Part shown: positions 10,009 through 42,179 of the stretch, in pieces
Layout of the letters: every line of letters begins with the position of its first letter
Position numbering within the stretch: the first letter of the stretch is position 1
Source: Patescibacteria group bacterium
GTDB lineage: Bacteria > Patescibacteriota > Minisyncoccia > Minisyncoccales > PEYH01
NCBI GenBank assembly: GCA_018817645.1
Contig: JAHITK010000006.1
Span: 1 to 48,589 of the forward strand
DNA: 48,589 bases
Direction of reading: 5' to 3'
Notes under the pieces: generated by a model
Databases searched by the model: none
What the model was told of the DNA's origin: nothing
Seen by the model: the letters and a program-made list of their open reading frames with translations, nothing else
Translations under genes and position numbers: made by a program

Positions 10009-10119
10009 TGTGGATAACTTTCCCCAAAAAATTACGAGGCCGGGCCTCGTAGTGAGAATCCTTATATCTGGCGTGGGTTCCGACGTTTTACGAAAATTAC
10101 GAGGCCCGGCCTCGTAGTG
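10009..10119. repeat. REP pair copy A (BIME-like element)
   Basis: An exact DnaA-box-like TGTGGATAA is followed by CTTTCCCCAAAAAATT, palindrome 1 (acgaggccgggcctcgt, 10034-10050), a 48-base spacer, and palindrome 2 (acgaggcccggcctcgt, 10099-10115). Palindrome 2 is the reverse complement of palindrome 1. The spacer is identical to that of copy C. It lies between the ECF sigma gene and its DUF5667-like partner, so it would be transcribed in their intergenic region. Confidence 0.9.
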
Positions 10120-12012: not shown

Positions 12013-12046
12013 TTGTCCTCTTTGGCGAGTCGGACAATATGCGGAC
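12013..12046 (-). promoter_or_regulatory. TGTCCG direct repeats before the 193-aa/215-aa operon
   Basis: On the minus strand TTGTCCGCATATTGTCCGAC gives two TGTCCG words at an 11-base period. They lie just upstream of a plausible promoter (TTTACA, 16 bases, TAAAGT). They match the boxes before the sigma gene in core (TGTCC) and phasing. Confidence 0.45.
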
Positions 12047-12408
12047 AAAAAGTCAAAGTTCCCAACTGGAAGTCGGGAACTACTATTTAAGGGGGCAGAA
12101 AATCTCTGCCAAAGAACTGCTTAGCAAAGAACAATAGAATGGCATGCGGGGAGGGCGGCTTATACGGACTTCCCTCCCCTGACTCTTTTTGAGAATCTTT
12201 GTTGCGAACTTAGCCTGTTGCGTTACTCGAGAAAGCCTACTTAAAGCCCTCGCTCGCAGCCGACTCTCTTGCCTGTGGAGTAGCCACTACTTACCGCTCG
12301 AGGGGGAGAAAGCGACTAGCAGAACTCCCGCCTTTAGTCCGTCAACCACGGAGGTTGGAGGTATGCCGTCCCCCCGAAAAAAGGAGGACTGACACAGTTC
12401 TCTTGCTA
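12046..12408 (-). ncRNA. Structured non-coding RNA 1 (paralogue of the RNA at 13187-13521)
   Basis: This 360-base unit has no credible ORF. Its promoter on the minus strand is TTGACA (12437-12442), 16 bases, TACAAT (12415-12420). It ends in the hairpin agttccc/gggaact (12057-12081) followed by TTTGACTTTTTG. Inside, a perfect 8-bp stem GGGGAGGG/CCCTCCCC encloses a loop with GTCCGTATAAGCCG. A separate upstream word CGGACTAAAGG can pair with GTCCG. The 5' part carries CCTCC words complementary to Shine-Dalgarno sequences. The second RNA shares CGGACTAA-GG, GAGCGG-AAG, the GTCCGTxxTAAGCCGCC hairpin, GCATxCC and GTTCTTTG in the same order. It does not match what I know of RNase P, tmRNA, SRP or 6S RNA. 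Function unknown. Confidence 0.65.
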
Positions 12409-12414
12409 TTTTCA

Positions 12415-12442
12415 ATTGTACATTCAAATTAACTCCTGTCAA
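12415..12442 (-). promoter_or_regulatory. Sigma-70 promoter of non-coding RNA 1
   Basis: On the minus strand the -35 is a perfect TTGACA and the -10 is TACAAT, 16 bases apart. There is no ORF downstream before the hairpin terminator at 12057-12081. Confidence 0.7.
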
Positions 12443-12462
12443 ATGAATCAACAGATAGGCCC

Positions 12463-12571
12463 TGTGGAAAACTCCCCCTCAAAAATTACGAGGCCGGGCC
12501 TCGTAGTGAGAATCCATTGATTTGACGCGGTTTCCGCCAAATGCAAAAATTACGAGGCCCGGCCTCGTAAT
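12463..12571. repeat. REP pair copy B (BIME-like element)
   Basis: TGTGGAAAACTCCCCC precedes palindrome 1 (acgaggccgggcctcgt, 12488-12504) and palindrome 2 (acgaggcccggcctcgt, 12552-12568). The spacer belongs to a second subfamily (attgatttgacgcgg...) shared with copy E and differs from copies A and C. The element lies just upstream of the non-coding RNA 1 promoter. Confidence 0.9.
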
Positions 12572-12604
12572 TACCCCTCATAATTTCCTTAAAATTTCAA
12601 TTTA

Positions 12605-12642
12605 TAAAAAGGTCCGCCTCGCGACTCGCGAACGAAGCGGAC
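12605..12642 (-). terminator. Terminator of the unknown 137-aa gene
   Basis: On the minus strand GTCCGC pairs with GCGGAC around an inner CGCGA/TCGCG stem, followed by CTTTTTAT. It lies about 25 bases beyond the stop codon. Confidence 0.75.
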
Positions 12643-12666
12643 ACCCAGACACAACGCCCAAAAGAA

Positions 12667-13080
12667 CTAATTCCTGACAGAATTTTCAGCCCCATCAATA
12701 TACTCCACATATATTCTCCGCCTCTCTGCCTCTTTGACCAATCTCTCGTCAAACACTCCGTTAGGAGTGTTGACTATTGAGATGCCTCCTTCTCGGTTTA
12801 AGGCCGCGACCCTGGTAACCAACTGGCCTGGCTCCTCAACCCCGTCAAGCCAAGTTATGGTTGGATAGGGGCGCCAGAGGCCACCATCGCCAACACTTAC
12901 CTCTGCCGTCCTAAGCACCCTTAATCTCCCTATGTTGTCACAAACCACTGAAACCCCCATGGGATAGTTGCAAGCGCAGGGAAGATCTACAGTATCACTT
13001 CTATCAAACCGGAGCGTGATGATTTTATCCGACCTTCCTCTCATTTCGTCCGGCATTGAAAAAATTCTCTTTCCTGGCAT
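12667..13080 (-). CDS. Unknown soluble protein between two paralogous RNA genes
   Basis: I do not recognise this 137-residue protein. The start is placed at 13080 because AAAGGAGGG lies four bases before that ATG, whereas the longer frame would put this ribosome binding site inside the coding region. The sequence is mixed alpha/beta without signal peptide or membrane helix. It contains DLPCACNYPMGVSVVCDNIG with three Cys, which could bind metal or form a disulfide but match no motif I know. The C-terminus (FDERLVKEAERRRIYVEYID) is helical. The strong ribosome binding site is unlike the SD-poor neighbours and like the 21.7-26.6 kb genes. RNA 2 ends just upstream and RNA 1 begins downstream, so the gene may belong to the same module. 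Confidence 0.7.
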   Translation of the reverse strand: MPGKRIFSMPDEMRGRSDKIITLRFDRSDTVDLPCACNYPMGVSVVCDNIGRLRVLRTAEVSVGDGGLWRPYPTITWLDGVEEPGQLVTRVAALNREGGISIVNTPNGVFDERLVKEAERRRIYVEYIDGAENSVRN

Positions 13081-13186
13081 TTTCCCTCCTTTATTTTTAC
13101 GCGGCAAAGATTTAAATAAATCCTGTTTCTAATTTCATCTTACTCACCTATAATTTAAAGTCAACTTTTTGATAAATATATTGCTC

Positions 13187-13521
13187 TAAGAAAGAAACAA
13201 GTCCTCGGCATTGCCAAGGACTCTTCGGGTTAACGGCGAGCGATAATGAATAACGCTCGAAAGGTGCTGGAAAGAACAAACAAAGAACACTGAAAGTGGT
13301 ATGCGGGAGGGGCGGCTTAATAACGGACCACCTCCCTTGCTCTGAGAAGGAGAGCGCAGTGTTTGTCAGTCACTACGCCGGGCTCTTGTCAACGCGTATT
13401 AGCGTTGAGCCCTCAAAGAGCAACCACCGCTCGCGCTTGCCGCTCAGGTGTAAGGAGGTTACCTTGAACCACCTTAGTCCGCAAACCCGTCTGCCAAGGA
13501 GGATAAACAGAACGGTGTCTT
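13187..13521 (-). ncRNA. Structured non-coding RNA 2 (paralogue of the RNA at 12046-12408)
   Basis: On the minus strand the promoter is TTGACA (13550-13555), 16 bases, CATAAT (13528-13533), the same spacing as for RNA 1. The transcript ends in the hairpin agtccttggc/gccgaggact (13200-13222) followed by TGTTTCTTTCTT. Inside, a long hairpin GGGCTC...CAACGC/GCGTTG..GCCC and the conserved GGGAGG/CCTCCC stem with loop GTCCGTTATTAAGCCG are visible. GCGGACTAAGG upstream can pair with GTCCG. CCTCCTT occurs twice in the 5' part, once in a predicted loop closed by CCGTTCTG/CAGACGG. The conserved words keep the same order as in RNA 1, although the intervening sequence differs, as expected of homologous structured RNAs. 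Class and function unknown. Confidence 0.65.
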
Positions 13522-13527
13522 ATTTTT

Positions 13528-13555
13528 ATTATGCATCTAATTAAAACTTTGTCAA
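13528..13555 (-). promoter_or_regulatory. Sigma-70 promoter of non-coding RNA 2
   Basis: TTGACA and CATAAT are 16 bases apart on the minus strand. A hairpin at 13562-13581 (atccgc/gcggat) just upstream may insulate this promoter from the large surface-protein gene. Confidence 0.65.
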
Positions 13556-13591
13556 GACAAAATCCGCTATTCTTGGCGGATTTAGCGGACC

Positions 13592-13641
13592 GGTGGAAAA
13601 CTTTCCCCAAAAAATTACCCGCCCCAGGCGGGTAATTTTTA
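13592..13641. repeat. Variant REP-like hairpin, probable bidirectional terminator
   Basis: GGTGGAAAACTTTCCCCAAA is nearly identical to the left module of REP copies A and C. It continues into a different palindrome, attacccgcc/ggcgggtaat (13614-13636), and there is no second palindrome. On the minus strand the stem is followed by TTTTTTGGGG, so it can terminate the 1946-aa gene that ends 46 bases away. Confidence 0.6.
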
Positions 13642-13686
13642 CTGCAATGATTATTTATAATATAAACCAACTAATTTAAGAACTTA

Positions 13687-20221: not shown

Positions 20222-20333
20222 CCTGTGGAAAACTTTCCCCAAAAAATTACGAGGCCGGGCCTCGTAGTGAGAATCCTTATATCTGGCGTGGGTTCCGACG
20301 TTTTACGAAAATTACGAGGCCCGGCCTCGTAAT
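20222..20333. repeat. REP pair copy C (3' side of the RAYT gene)
   Basis: CTGTGGAAAACTTTCCCC precedes palindrome 1 (20249-20265) and palindrome 2 (20314-20330, centre inverted). The spacer is identical to that of copy A 10 kb away. It lies 90 bases beyond the stop of the REP-associated transposase gene, and copy D lies on the other side. Confidence 0.9.
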
Positions 20334-20421: not shown

Positions 20422-21129
20422 TCATTCTAAAAAATCTGTTTTATCTATTCCTTTAGAATAAATGCTTGATTTGGATAATATCCAAGAGTTTATTTCGTTC
20501 TTAATTTCTTGTTTTCCGTTAAATAACTTCGCAAAAAAATCTTTTTTAATCAATGAAGGAAAATTATCTTTCCCTAAATAATCCTGATAACTGGACCAGC
20601 GATATTCGCTCCCTAAAAATTGAATGGCCTTCTGGGGATTAAGAACTTTCCATTCTTTCCACTGCGGCTCAACGAGTTCTATCGGATTTGTGTTTATATA
20701 AACAAAATTATTTTTAAGCTGCGTTTCTGTCTGGATAAGTTTAGCTCTAAACCGTCCCTCAAAAAGAGATCCTGTTCTTTGATATTTTTTATTAAAAAAA
20801 TACGCATATCCGCCGAGTTTCCTTGTATATTTCGTAATGCCATTTTCTGTGATTTGCCGAATAAGAAGATGAAAATGGTTGCCCATTAAAGCAAATGCGT
20901 GAATTTCGACCAAGGGATTCTTGGGCTGATAAGACATCACCAGCTCTTTTTGTCGCTTCCAAAAAGCGCGGGATTGCCACGGCGAAGGCGCTGTATCGTT
21001 AAAAACTAACAAACTATTAATAAAACGAAGGCGATCTTCATCGTCTAAGAATATTTTACGCTTATCATTTCCGCGCTCTATAATATGGTAGAATTCACCA
21101 TTGATTAATTCGGTTTTTCTTTTTGGCAC
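20422..21129 (-). CDS. rayT: REP-associated tyrosine transposase (RAYT, TnpA-REP / Y1_Tnp family)
   Basis: This 235-residue protein belongs to the HUH single-strand transposases (Y1_Tnp, IS200/IS605-related). It has GEFYHIIERGNDKRKIFLDD at residues 11-30, the metal-binding HUH motif in LMGNHFHLLIRQ (about residues 82-93), and a catalytic tyrosine candidate in RKLGGYAYFFNKKYQRTGSL (about 104-123), followed by FEGRFRAKLI. RAYTs nick at REP palindromes and are thought to spread them. Two copies of one palindrome pair flank this gene, at 20222-20333 and 21176-21309, and five more occur in the window, which strongly supports the assignment. The start is a GTG without a clear Shine-Dalgarno. The gene looks intact, so the element could be active. 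Confidence 0.92.
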   Translation of the reverse strand: MPKRKTELINGEFYHIIERGNDKRKIFLDDEDRLRFINSLLVFNDTAPSPWQSRAFWKRQKELVMSYQPKNPLVEIHAFALMGNHFHLLIRQITENGITKYTRKLGGYAYFFNKKYQRTGSLFEGRFRAKLIQTETQLKNNFVYINTNPIELVEPQWKEWKVLNPQKAIQFLGSEYRWSSYQDYLGKDNFPSLIKKDFFAKLFNGKQEIKNEINSWILSKSSIYSKGIDKTDFLE

Positions 21130-21175: not shown

Positions 21176-21309
21176 TGTGGAAAACTTTTATCTATATCCG
21201 TCTCGAGCGGCCCCCAAAAAATTACGAGGCCGGGCCTCGTAGTGAGAATCCTTATATCTGACATGGGTTTTCGGCGATAGCAGAAATTACGAGGCCGGGC
21301 CTCGTAATT
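21176..21309. repeat. REP pair copy D (5' side of the RAYT gene)
   Basis: TGTGGAAAACTTTT is separated from CCCAAAAAATT by about 24 bases (including tctcgagcgg) not present in copies A and C. Palindromes lie at 21224-21240 and 21289-21305; both have the same central G, unlike copies A, B, C and E, where the second is inverted. The spacer is a diverged member of the A/C subfamily. Confidence 0.9.
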
Positions 21310-22011: not shown

Positions 22012-22141
22012 TCTGGATAACTTTTATTTATACCCGCCCCGGTCGGGCCAAAAAATTACGAGGCCGGGCCTCGTAGTGAGAATCCGTTGATTTGACGCGG
22101 TTTCCGCCAAATGCAAAAATTACGAGGCCCGGCCTCGTAAT
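22012..22141. repeat. REP pair copy E (BIME-like element)
   Basis: TCTGGATAACTTTT is followed by an extra small palindrome (cccgccccggtcgggcc) and then palindromes at 22058-22074 and 22122-22138. The spacer differs from copy B by about one base, although the copies are 9.5 kb apart, which suggests recent duplication or gene conversion. Confidence 0.9.
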
Positions 22142-26138: not shown

Positions 26139-26248
26139 TCTGTGGATAACTTTTCCCAAAAAATTACGAGGCCGGGCCTCGTTGCGACAATCCCTAATAC
26201 TGGCGTGGGTTTCGACGTTTAGCATAAATTACGAGGCCGGGCCTCGTA
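26139..26248. repeat. REP pair copy G (BIME-like element)
   Basis: An exact DnaA-box-like TGTGGATAA (26141-26149) and CTTTTCCCAAAAAATT precede palindromes at 26166-26182 and 26231-26247, both with the central G. The spacer is a diverged member of the A/C family. The element lies between two convergent transcription units. Confidence 0.9.
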
Positions 26249-37917: not shown

Positions 37918-38596
37918 CAAAATGAGGCGTTATTTCTTCCTTCAGTTTTTCCAGATATTCGTCCGGGAAGGACTTGGCTTTTGCAAGTTTGGGGTTCAGG
38001 AGTTTGCCTTGCGACTGGAAATTTTGCAAAAAATATTTGGGCGCAGGCGAAATCCATTTTACGATTTCCAAGATATCTTTCTTTTCCACCAACCCCGGGA
38101 CAAGAGTGGTCCTGAATTCAAAATCAATCACTCCTTTTTTTAACAATTTTATGCTTTTGTCTATCTGTCCAACATCAATATCCGCGCCAACCACTGTCTT
38201 ATATCTCTTTTTGGGCGCCTTAACATCCATTGCCGCATAATCAAGCAAGTTCAATTCAATCAGCTGCCGCAGCATTTCCGGACGGCTCCCGTTGGTGTCC
38301 AGTTTTATCAAAAACCCCATCTCCTGAATCTTTTCTATAAAATCCGGGAGGTCGTCATAGATGGTCGGCTCGCCTCCGCAAATTACCACTCCGTCTAAGA
38401 ATCCTTTCCTTTCTTCAAGGAATTCCCAAATCTTTTCTTCGGGAATCAATGGATGTTTTTTAATCTCCTCTGCCAAAACAAGCTCGGGATTATAGCAGAA
38501 CGGACATTTAAAATTACAACCGCTGACAAATATGGTAGCGGCAACCTTCCCCGGATAATCAATAAGGGTAGATTTTTGAATGCCTCCTATCCTCAT
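37898..38596 (-). CDS. nrdG: Anaerobic ribonucleoside-triphosphate reductase activating protein (NrdG-type radical SAM)
   Basis: This radical-SAM enzyme installs the glycyl radical on NrdD. The 232-residue product has IQKSTLIDYPGKVAATIFVS followed by the iron-sulfur signature GCNFKCPFCYNPELV (CxxxCxxC). The SAM-binding GVVICGGEPTIYDDLPDFIE and the internal LIKLDTNGSRPEML also fit. It is longer than enterobacterial NrdG and of the PflA-like archaeal/CPR type. Its ATG overlaps the stop of nrdD (ATGA) and its end overlaps comEC by 20 bases, so the three genes form one transcript. Confidence 0.93.
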   Translation of the reverse strand: MRIGGIQKSTLIDYPGKVAATIFVSGCNFKCPFCYNPELVLAEEIKKHPLIPEEKIWEFLEERKGFLDGVVICGGEPTIYDDLPDFIEKIQEMGFLIKLDTNGSRPEMLRQLIELNLLDYAAMDVKAPKKRYKTVVGADIDVGQIDKSIKLLKKGVIDFEFRTTLVPGLVEKKDILEIVKWISPAPKYFLQNFQSQGKLLNPKLAKAKSFPDEYLEKLKEEITPHFDVCQIR

Positions 38597-41500
38597 ATCT
38601 TGAGATTAAACACTTTCCTGTCCTTGAATTCCTGCTGTTTCCCCGCATTCCATTGTTTCACGGGGCGGATGTAGCCGACAACCCTTGAATAAACTTCGCA
38701 GGGTTGCTCCACCACGCATTTCGGACACTTAAAATGTTCGCCGGCGATATATCCATGAACCGGGCAGATGGAAAAAGTCGGAGTCAAGGTAATATAGGGA
38801 AGCTTAAATTTAGTAAAAATATTTTTTACCAGCGCTTTAACCGCTTCCGCCCCGGACAGCCGCTCCCCGGCAAAAATATGCAAGACCGTGCCGCCGGTAT
38901 AACGGCACTGCAATTCGTCTTGAAGTTTCAGCGCTTCAAAAACATCGTCAGTATAATTGACTGGCAATTGGCTGGAATTGGTATAATAGGGAACTTCCGG
39001 AGTGCCGGCGGCAACGATGTCCGGATATTTTTCTTTGTCTTTTTGAGCCAGGCGGTATCCAGTGCTCTCACCGGGCGTCGCTTCCAAATTATACATATGG
39101 TCTGTTTCTTTCTGATATCGCAATAGCCGTTCTCTCATAAAATCCATTATCTCCAGTGAGAATTTCCTTCCATTATTTGACGCCACTCCCTCTCCCAGAA
39201 AGTTAACAAGCGCCTCGTTCATTCCAATTAAACCAATAGTGGAAAAATGATTGGCATAATATGCTCCCCTGGCTTGTTTAACCCCACTCAAGTAATACTT
39301 TGAATAAGGATAAAGCCCTTTTTCAATATAGTTTTCTATGGTTTTTCTTTTAATCTCCAAACTTTCTTTGGCTAAATCCATGGCTTTGCCAAGTTGTTCA
39401 AGAAAATCTTTTTTGGTTTTGGAAAGATAACCGATTTTCGGAAGATTAATAGTGACTACTCCGATGCTGCCCGTGAGCGCGCCGGCGCCAAACAACCCCC
39501 CGCCCCCGCGGTTATGAAGTTCTTTCATGTTCAACCGAAGCCGGCAACAATTAAAAGAAATTTGCCCCAAAGAATGCAGAAAAAGATGGTTTTTTTGAAG
39601 TTCTATATCGTAAAACTCTATTGGTTTTTTATATTTTTTAATTTTAATTTCCTGCGCTCTAGTCAAATAAATATTGCTATTCTTGATTTTTAAACTCTCT
39701 TGAGTATGAGCTCTGTATTTTTCTAATGTATTAGACCCGGTCGTTCTAGACTTAGTCAGTCCTGGCACCTTGGTGGTAGAGACTGCCATCCACCCCGGTA
39801 GTCTTTCGGCCAAAATCGGATTATTAATGCATCCGTTCCCTTGTTTGATTTTTGACTTAGCATGCTGCAAATAAATTATCTGGCTCTTTTTCCTTAATTT
39901 ATAGGTAACGGGCTTCCCGATTAAAGAATAAAGCAACACAAGGTCGCGAGATAATTCTAAATCATTTATATGGATTTCTTGCCTTCTATCATAGCCGTCA
40001 CCCTTAAAGTGAAATTCTAAAAAACTTTTGATAACATCGGGGGGAGAATTAAATAAAATCTGGGGCAATCTTCCATATTTTTTAAATCCTGCATTATAAA
40101 ATTTTCTGGCTAATTTGGTGTTATAAACATAAAGATAGTAAGTATTATATTTTGGGTCTTGCTTCTCTTTACAATCCAAATTAAAAACTTTTTTAATTAG
40201 TCCTCTTATTAAATTCAGATTTTCCAAATCCCCTGTCTTAAAAGTAAATTGTAGGCCTCTCGGCTCTCCAAAATGAACATAATTTTTCCTATTTTTAAAC
40301 AAATAATTTCCATCTGCCACAAAATATCCTAATATTTTAGCCAAATCTTCATTGAAACTGAATTCCTCAATGCTCTGATATTTTTTAGATAAAACTCCCT
40401 CGTCTGCTCTCTTAATAACCAAGAGATAATCTCCTTTTTTAATATCTTTGGCGAACTTCATCACAATTCCTTGTTGGCAATAAACCGCCACCGGGTGGTT
40501 TAATGAGAATATTGCTTTTCTGCCGTCTACGCTACTAATTTCTACTACTCGGGTATCGCTAATCTTTAAGAATCTCTTTATCGGAGCCCATTCTAACTTT
40601 AAGGTTTTTGGATTCAAGGACAGTCCTTCTATTCTCCCTTCTTTTTTACATTCTGACCACCCTTCTTTGTCAAACTCTCCGTCTTTATAATTCTCCGCTA
40701 CTTCTTTAACGGAAAGTCTTTTAATTTTTCTTGAATTCCTAACTAAAATTTCCTGACTTCCCTCTAAACACATACTTCTGACATCTTCTGGACTCATATC
40801 GGAATTAATATAGTTGGCGAAATAATTGATTCCGTATTTTGCCGAGGCCTCAAAGATTAAATCAAAAACCGTACCGTCCCAGGGAAAATCTTTAGTGATA
40901 TTTATGGTTGGAATCGGAAAATGGAAAGGCCGGCCGTATTTGTCCCCCTCAATCATCGTTTCATACAGCGCTTTATCAAAGATTCTCATCTCTTCCTCAA
41001 ATTCGCCGTATGTTTCCTCTTGGGGCTTCCCTCCCCAGATAACGGGTTGTCTGGAAAAGACCGGCGACGGTTTTAAATCCAATGTTATATTTGAAAACGG
41101 ATTCTGAAATCCCACTCTCGTCGGCACCGCCATATTAAACAAGAATTCCTGCAAGGATTGCTTGACCTGCTCATAATTTAAATTGTCATAACGGATAAAA
41201 GGCGCCAAGAGGGTGTCAAAATTAGAAAAAGCCACCGCTCCAGCGATTTCTCCTTGAACAGTGTATAGAAAATTTACCACCTGTCCCAAGACAGCCCGGA
41301 AATGTTTGGGCGGTTTTGATTCCACTTTTCCCGGCGCGCCGCCGAATCCGCGCAGTAAAAGATCATAGAGGTCCCATCCGGCGCAATAAAGCCCTAAGGT
41401 ATCCAGGTTGTGGATATGAAAATCATTATGCTCTACTGCCTGTCTGATTTCTTTCGGGTAAATTTTATTGAGCCAATACTTTTTGACAATATATGAAACG

Positions 41501-41916
41501 CCGTAATGATTAAGGCCCTGCAAAGAAAAGGTCATATTGGCATTTTCCCGAACTTCCCAATCCAATTTTCCGAGATATTGGTCAACCCTGTCAACCGCTT
41601 CTTCGCTGGCCGCCACCGCTTCCCTTGTTATTCTCCTTTGCTCCCGGTAAAGGATATAGGCCCGGGCTGTTTCAGTAAGATTTTCCGCGATTAAAACCTC
41701 CTCCACGATATCCTGAACCTGCTCAACATTCGGAATTTCGCCTTCCTTAAAGCGCCGGCCCAAAATATCCGACACTTTTTTGGAAAGTTTTTTAGATAAA
41801 ACGCCATCCGCCTGGCCGGTCGCAGTGATGGCTTTATAAATGGCTTTGGCTATCTTTTCCTGTTCAAAATCAACAATACTCCCGTCCCTTTTTTTAACTT
41901 TAACAATCTTTGTCAT
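38593..41916 (-). CDS. nrdD: Class III anaerobic ribonucleotide reductase NrdD with an in-frame intein
   Basis: NrdD makes deoxynucleotides from ribonucleoside triphosphates in the absence of oxygen. The 1107-residue precursor has an N-terminal ATP-cone (1-95, KVKKRDGSIVDFEQEKIAKA), the reductase core, a C-terminal zinc site (CPVHGYIAGEHFKCPKC) and the glycyl-radical motif RVVGYIRP near the end. An intein of about 407 residues interrupts NSDMSPEDVRSM|CCRLRLNMKEL at residues 383-789; without it the protein is about 700 residues, the normal length. The intein inserts at a conserved active-site Cys, as inteins usually do. No class I or II enzyme is seen here, which suggests an anaerobic lifestyle. 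Confidence 0.95.
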   Translation of the reverse strand: MTKIVKVKKRDGSIVDFEQEKIAKAIYKAITATGQADGVLSKKLSKKVSDILGRRFKEGEIPNVEQVQDIVEEVLIAENLTETARAYILYREQRRITREAVAASEEAVDRVDQYLGKLDWEVRENANMTFSLQGLNHYGVSYIVKKYWLNKIYPKEIRQAVEHNDFHIHNLDTLGLYCAGWDLYDLLLRGFGGAPGKVESKPPKHFRAVLGQVVNFLYTVQGEIAGAVAFSNFDTLLAPFIRYDNLNYEQVKQSLQEFLFNMAVPTRVGFQNPFSNITLDLKPSPVFSRQPVIWGGKPQEETYGEFEEEMRIFDKALYETMIEGDKYGRPFHFPIPTINITKDFPWDGTVFDLIFEASAKYGINYFANYINSDMSPEDVRSMCLEGSQEILVRNSRKIKRLSVKEVAENYKDGEFDKEGWSECKKEGRIEGLSLNPKTLKLEWAPIKRFLKISDTRVVEISSVDGRKAIFSLNHPVAVYCQQGIVMKFAKDIKKGDYLLVIKRADEGVLSKKYQSIEEFSFNEDLAKILGYFVADGNYLFKNRKNYVHFGEPRGLQFTFKTGDLENLNLIRGLIKKVFNLDCKEKQDPKYNTYYLYVYNTKLARKFYNAGFKKYGRLPQILFNSPPDVIKSFLEFHFKGDGYDRRQEIHINDLELSRDLVLLYSLIGKPVTYKLRKKSQIIYLQHAKSKIKQGNGCINNPILAERLPGWMAVSTTKVPGLTKSRTTGSNTLEKYRAHTQESLKIKNSNIYLTRAQEIKIKKYKKPIEFYDIELQKNHLFLHSLGQISFNCCRLRLNMKELHNRGGGGLFGAGALTGSIGVVTINLPKIGYLSKTKKDFLEQLGKAMDLAKESLEIKRKTIENYIEKGLYPYSKYYLSGVKQARGAYYANHFSTIGLIGMNEALVNFLGEGVASNNGRKFSLEIMDFMRERLLRYQKETDHMYNLEATPGESTGYRLAQKDKEKYPDIVAAGTPEVPYYTNSSQLPVNYTDDVFEALKLQDELQCRYTGGTVLHIFAGERLSGAEAVKALVKNIFTKFKLPYITLTPTFSICPVHGYIAGEHFKCPKCVVEQPCEVYSRVVGYIRPVKQWNAGKQQEFKDRKVFNLKI
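39550..40770 (-). other. Intein with LAGLIDADG homing endonuclease inside NrdD
   Basis: The intein starts with CLEGSQEILVRNS (splicing block A), continues with block B (FSLNHPVAVYC), then two endonuclease motifs (ILGYFVADGNYL and EFHFKGDGYD), and ends with block F (IEFYDIELQKNHLFLHS) and block G (ISFN followed by the extein Cys). The usual penultimate His of block G is replaced by Phe; the terminal Asn and the +1 Cys are kept, so splicing may still be possible. Removal leaves a continuous NrdD sequence SMCCRLRL. Confidence 0.88.
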
Positions 41917-42014: not shown

Positions 42015-42179
42015 TGTGGAAAACTTTTACTTAACCCGCCCAAGGCGGGCTTGCCCGCCTTGGGCGAACCACTAAAAAATTACCAGGAAAAATTACGAGG
42101 CCGGGCCTCGTAGTGAGAATCCTCAATACTGGTGTGGCTTCCGACGTTTAACAGAAATTACGAGGCCGGGCCTCGTAAT
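42015..42179. repeat. REP pair copy H with an inserted hairpin; supplies a stop codon
   Basis: TGTGGAAAACTTTT is followed by a long hairpin (cgcccaaggcgggc/cccgccttgggcg), then aaattacc and palindromes at 42095-42111 and 42160-42176, both with the central G. The right end runs into the glycosyltransferase gene: its last six codons (LRGPAS) and its TAA stop are made of palindrome 2. Confidence 0.9.

Follow-up and report, generated by a model that had tools for sequence, protein, structure and literature searches.

The stretch of DNA analysed here, which we call the window, comprises 48,589 nucleotides of a genome assembled into 665,325 bases on 28 contigs, with an estimated completeness of 100%. 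The small size and the gene content of the genome suggest an origin in the Candidate Phyla Radiation. The window is chromosomal DNA that carries ftsZ, ftsA, ybeY, clpB and other housekeeping genes, mostly on the minus strand. An anaerobic ribonucleotide reductase gene was found at 38593-41916, with an internal intein splicing domain (Pfam PF14890, residues 430-781).

The region under study has the order 1946-aa gene, RNA2, 137-aa gene, RNA1 and 193-aa gene, all on the minus strand. RNA1 (12046..12408, minus strand) and RNA2 (13187..13521, minus strand) are predicted to be structured noncoding RNAs by their promoters, terminators, mutual paralogy, fold and GC content, which is 51% in RNA1 and 52% in RNA2 against 43% in the window. 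The coordinates, strand and parts of both RNAs had been given in an earlier note made from the sequence, and they were confirmed.

Transcription signals, neighbouring genes and repeats

Each RNA has a promoter of its own, as the earlier note had proposed: TTGACA-16-TACAAT for RNA1 (12415..12442, minus strand) and TTGACA-16-CATAAT for RNA2 (13528..13555, minus strand), both with 11 of 12 matches to the sigma-70 consensus. The same-strand intrinsic terminators were borne out as well, with a stem of 11 pairs in each case, at 12057..12081 in RNA1 (minus strand, followed by a U-rich tail to about 12046) and at 13199..13223 in RNA2 (minus strand, again followed by a U-rich tail). These promoters and terminators, by which a free-standing RNA is recognised, were identified by consensus matches only, and the region holds seven promoter-like sites where 2.0 are expected. 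Both RNAs end about 95-107 bases before the next start codon.

The 137-aa gene between the RNAs (12667..13080, minus strand) has a promoter-like site, TTGACT-16-TAAGAT (13164-13137), located between the RNA2 terminator and its start codon. The 193-aa gene likewise has one, TTTACA-16-TAAAGT, between the RNA1 terminator and its start codon, and both sites are conserved in G001, a genome of the same genus. The ribosome-binding site of the 137-aa gene, which had been called unusually strong, is real and unusual for the window; its Shine-Dalgarno sequence is AAAGGAGG, and few genes in the window show one at all. This strong site is kept in G001. Searches with the protein in Pfam, NCBIfam, PHROGs and PADLOC gave no family, the PDB gave neither a sequence match nor a fold match, and viral contigs gave no relative. 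The structure of the protein was predicted with fair confidence (mean pLDDT 80.8). Homologues of the gene are patchy and share conserved WLDGVE and C-x-C motifs.

The suggestion that this gene belongs to the same system as the RNAs did not survive the comparison with relatives. Its syntenic copy in G001 keeps the promoter and the Shine-Dalgarno sequence with no RNA on either side, and in G073 and G099, where it has homologues, the surroundings are different and the RNAs are again missing. We thus rejected the link on the synteny in G001 and the neighbourhoods in G073 and G099, and the gene is judged to be outside the system.

A REPIN-like element (12458..12573, no strand assigned) is located close upstream of the RNA1 promoter, and a REP-like element (13587..13643, no strand assigned) close upstream of the RNA2 promoter. 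Palindromic repeats of this REP/REPIN-like kind (ATTACGAGGCC...GGCCTCGTAAT) are found in many intergenic regions, with further ones at 10031, 10096, 20226-20333, 21178-21308, 22055-22141, 26163-26228 and 42017-42179, and similar repeats occur in G001. At 20422-21129 there is a Y1 transposase gene with a weak match to REP-associated tyrosine transposase. The window proteins searched showed no domain of TnpB, IscB or a reverse transcriptase.

Relatedness of the two copies and their proposed fold

RNA1 and RNA2 are truly related, that is, paralogous. Their local alignment scored 65, while 500 dinucleotide shuffles gave 23.8 +/- 3.2 with a maximum of 42, so that the observed score is about 13 standard deviations over the shuffles; the global score was 188 against 119 +/- 9.6. 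The claim that both share words in the same order is hence statistically significant. The 5' halves by themselves are without significance (52 of 500 shuffles score as well), which places the statistical weight of the relatedness in the 3' core. This core comprises 62 columns that are 85% alike, and much of the remaining sequence is barely alignable. A conserved core with a hardly alignable rest is what selection acting on certain words would leave behind, as far as this may be read from two sequences. The words common to the 5' parts, in the same order, are UCCUCCUU, CGGACUAA and GAGCGG-AAG. Both RNAs are noncoding in appearance, because the loops of hairpin P4 (described below) differ by two bases between the copies and, as read from the sequence, hold TAA in one frame.

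The shared words make up the opposing strands of common helices, and one fold fits both copies, namely a three-way junction in which the hairpin loop GUCCGU pairs with an upstream (A/G)CGGAC. The CGGAC/GTCCG pairing that had been noticed earlier is possible in both RNAs. All elements lie on the minus strand. In RNA1 the pseudoknot consists of ACGGAC (12337..12342) and GUCCGU in the P4 loop (12164..12169), and in RNA2 of GCGGAC (13477..13482) and GUCCGU in the P4 loop (13323..13328). Helix P3 is formed by AGUGGC (12283..12288) with GCCAUU (12143-12138) in RNA1 and by GGUGGU (13423..13428) with ACCACU (13300-13295) in RNA2, and shows one two-sided and two one-sided changes between the copies. 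Helix P3b, GAGCGG/UUGUUC, lies at 12294..12299 with 12134-12129 in RNA1 and at 13440..13445 with 13279-13274 in RNA2; it is paired in both constrained folds and invariant, hence without covariation.

Hairpin P4 is located at 12148..12179 in RNA1, with the stem GGGGAGGG/CCCUCCCC, and at 13305..13336 in RNA2, with the stem GGGAGG/CCUCCC; the stem of this GGGAGG hairpin is 8 pairs long in RNA1 and 6 pairs long in RNA2. It shows two two-sided changes, and one inner pair is broken in this alignment. The P5 arm, with a variable interior, is closed by ACUC/GAGU in RNA1 (12182..12281) and by GCUC/GAGC in RNA2 (13339..13421), with one two-sided change in the closing helix.

Taking the pseudoknot, P3, P4 and P5 together, 16 of the 24 pairs are unchanged, three are kept with one-sided changes, four are kept with two-sided changes and one is broken. 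This count comes from two sequences and from helices picked after looking, and the covariation is suggestive at that strength; two of the four two-sided changes, those in P4, are equally readable as a one-base shift of the stem. Forcing P3, P4 and P5 costs 1.6 kcal/mol in RNA1 and 0.2 kcal/mol in RNA2 over the best folds. The folding energy of the whole RNAs is good (z = -3.75 for RNA1 and -4.26 for RNA2), and falls to z = -0.49 and -2.30 without the 5' and 3' end hairpins. The good values therefore owe much to these hairpins, which makes folding energy a weaker argument than it appears, and the RNA1 core folds no better than shuffles. RNAalifold gave unreliable folds on MAFFT and on plain pairwise alignments, and the shared helices were picked from an over-fitted fold of a custom structure-aware alignment. 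We accordingly present the fold as a hypothesis derived from two sequences.

Distribution in other genomes

Through blastn against 100 relatives, we found no further homologue of either RNA. A covariance model (R1) returned only its own two copies from all 247 genomes of the order, and likewise from partly overlapping samples of 384 genomes of the class and 380 of the phylum; a second model (R2) with laxer filters gave the same result in 40 relatives. The best weaker matches, seen as alignments, were without the hairpin and its loop words. Pattern scans at the DNA level over viral contigs and 85,000 species genomes (the latter with one pattern scan) yielded chance matches only, and in phages and plasmids there was nothing past one 28-base match with an E value of 0.4. 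The outcome that the earlier note had named as speaking against its claim, a lack of further homologues with covariation, has thus come true by half: none of these searches found a further homologue.

It follows that covariation rests on the two copies, and that purifying selection across species is not demonstrable, the RNAs being absent from every relative searched. A family under selection on fold, as the earlier note proposed, would thus be a suggestion from two copies, between which four two-sided and three one-sided changes keep the pairing and one pair is broken.

G001 has the same gene order and neither RNA. One of its two slots holds a glutamate-dehydrogenase-like gene between REP-like elements, and the other is a short intergenic stretch with a terminator. 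The dehydrogenase-like gene, named from its sequence, and its REP-like elements occupy L016:13022-14200, at the place of RNA2. Upstream of the homologous operon in G005 and G006, which belong to the family, gap lengths and sequence searches showed no comparable stretch either. Either the RNAs were gained in this lineage, or they were lost or changed beyond recognition in relatives. Our verdict is that RNA1 and RNA2 would represent a new, very narrowly distributed RNA family.

Interpretation and comparison with known RNAs

We put it at about an even chance that RNA1 and RNA2 go back to a single free-standing gene for a trans-acting structured noncoding RNA, of which they would be old and by now diverged copies. 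Gene structure and paralogy are computed results, the fold is derived from the two sequences, and trans action and partner binding are our inference only. Each RNA would be transcribed from its own strong promoter and stopped at its own terminator. The core would be laid out as a hairpin followed by a long helix P3b/P3 (GAGCGG...GUGG with CCAY...UUGUUC), which would open to a three-way junction with the variable arm P5 and the hairpin P4, with an invariant GCAU at the junction. The P4 loop GUCCGU may then pair with (A/G)CGGAC upstream of P3 as a long-range pseudoknot. It seems most likely that the RNAs act in trans, as regulatory RNAs that bind a protein or a target, and the invariant unpaired words, namely UAA after CGGAC, UAAGCC in the P4 loop and GCAU at the junction, are candidate contact sites. 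The RNAs were perhaps gained beside REP-type repeats.

A bolder version, which we regard as unlikely, would make RNA1 and RNA2 the first members of a new bacterial class of structured RNA with a pseudoknotted three-way junction. Their reduced genome would then keep both copies for a function as ribonucleoprotein or ribozyme that has no counterpart elsewhere.

Slightly less likely still, the RNAs may come from a mobile element, belonging to REP/REPIN repeats with a RAYT-like transposase or having served as guide-type RNA to an IS element that has since been lost; they would by now be resident and duplicated. The REP-like element close upstream of each promoter, the Y1/REP-associated transposase-like gene at 20422-21129 and the absence of the RNAs from the syntenic slots of G001, one of which holds a dehydrogenase gene between REP elements, are in its favour. 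However, REP-like elements are widespread in the intergenic regions of the window and of G001, so that their adjacency to the RNAs is expected. Domains of TnpB, IscB or a reverse transcriptase were not found in the window proteins searched, and no matching RNA was found in other genomes, phages or plasmids.

We consider it improbable that the two molecules are regulatory RNAs whose CCUCC stretches pair with Shine-Dalgarno sequences, the foremost target being the site of the 137-aa gene. RNA1 contains four CCUCC where 0.66 are expected (p 0.002) and RNA2 three where 0.44 are expected (p 0.006), both RNAs carry UCCUCCUU near their 5' ends, and the AAAGGAGG of the 137-aa gene stands out in the window, as only few genes there have a Shine-Dalgarno sequence. 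Yet the duplex energy with the 137-aa leader was no better than that of shuffles (78 and 86 of 300 were as good), in RNA1 the motif lies hidden within a hairpin, the P4 stem simply accounts for one CCUCC per RNA, and the strong site is also kept in G001, where the RNAs are absent. Antisense pairing to the 137-aa leader was rejected as not above chance.

The position of the RNAs, which end some 95-107 bases before start codons at intrinsic-type terminators, would also suit a role as attenuators or riboswitches, cis-acting leaders with conditional terminators that control the 137-aa and 193-aa genes, a reading that we hold to be even more doubtful. One RNA would then control two unrelated genes, and in G001 no RNA was found upstream of the homologous 137-aa and 193-aa genes. 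They are probably not leaders of the downstream genes, because these genes have promoter-like sites of their own between the terminators and the start codons, kept in G001 without the RNAs.

It is quite improbable that the RNAs are decaying relics of a larger known structured RNA such as an intron, RNase P RNA or tmRNA. Size and complex fold would agree with this, but words and helices have been preserved alike in each of the two separate copies, which is not what decay would bring about. Rfam (4227 families) gave nothing at or above gathering score in the whole window, and relaxing the E limit to 10 brought up weak matches only, far under their gathering scores, none of which fits either RNA; the statement that no class is recognised thus holds. 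RNase P RNA (RF00010, G000:C10:21582-21906) and tmRNA (RF00023, G000:C1:67674-68052) lie intact and above cut-off elsewhere in the genome, outside RNA1 and RNA2, and ARAGORN found no tmRNA in the window. Given these locations, we rejected the idea of either molecule in disguise. Least probable is a chance result or artefact, in which unrelated intergenic stretches would have words in common and carry promoters and terminators by accident: the RNA1 core has an ordinary folding energy, but the alignment lies about 13 standard deviations above shuffles and both copies have the same gene architecture.

Of a reduced genome of 0.67 million bases, about 700 bases go to the two copies of an RNA without a match among described families. 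Should fold and expression be borne out, a group in which noncoding RNAs are seemingly little studied would gain an orphan RNA family; confined to one species, this family would be a curiosity. The pair is ready for testing the predicted pseudoknot.

A literature search found nothing bearing on such an RNA. Of the closest known systems, RNase P RNA and tmRNA are similar in length to RNA1 and RNA2, and both are found elsewhere in the genome. The IS200/IS605-type guide RNAs are also pseudoknotted structured RNAs near a transposase-type gene and repeats, but RNA1 and RNA2 have independent promoters and terminators, and no TnpB/IscB domain was found in the window proteins searched. With 6S RNA, of which some species keep two, and with other free-standing bacterial regulatory RNAs they share an own promoter and terminator, the lack of a reading frame, a compact fold and a presumed action in trans. 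They differ from 6S RNA in being about twice as long, in having no Rfam match and in a predicted pseudoknotted three-way junction instead of its long bulged hairpin. RNAs of the OLE, GOLLD, ROOL, HEARO and raiA type are large orphan bacterial classes with many homologues; the likeness lies in the length, the elaborate fold, a function not readable from sequence and the patchy distribution, whereas RNA1 and RNA2, without an Rfam match, are two copies in one genome.
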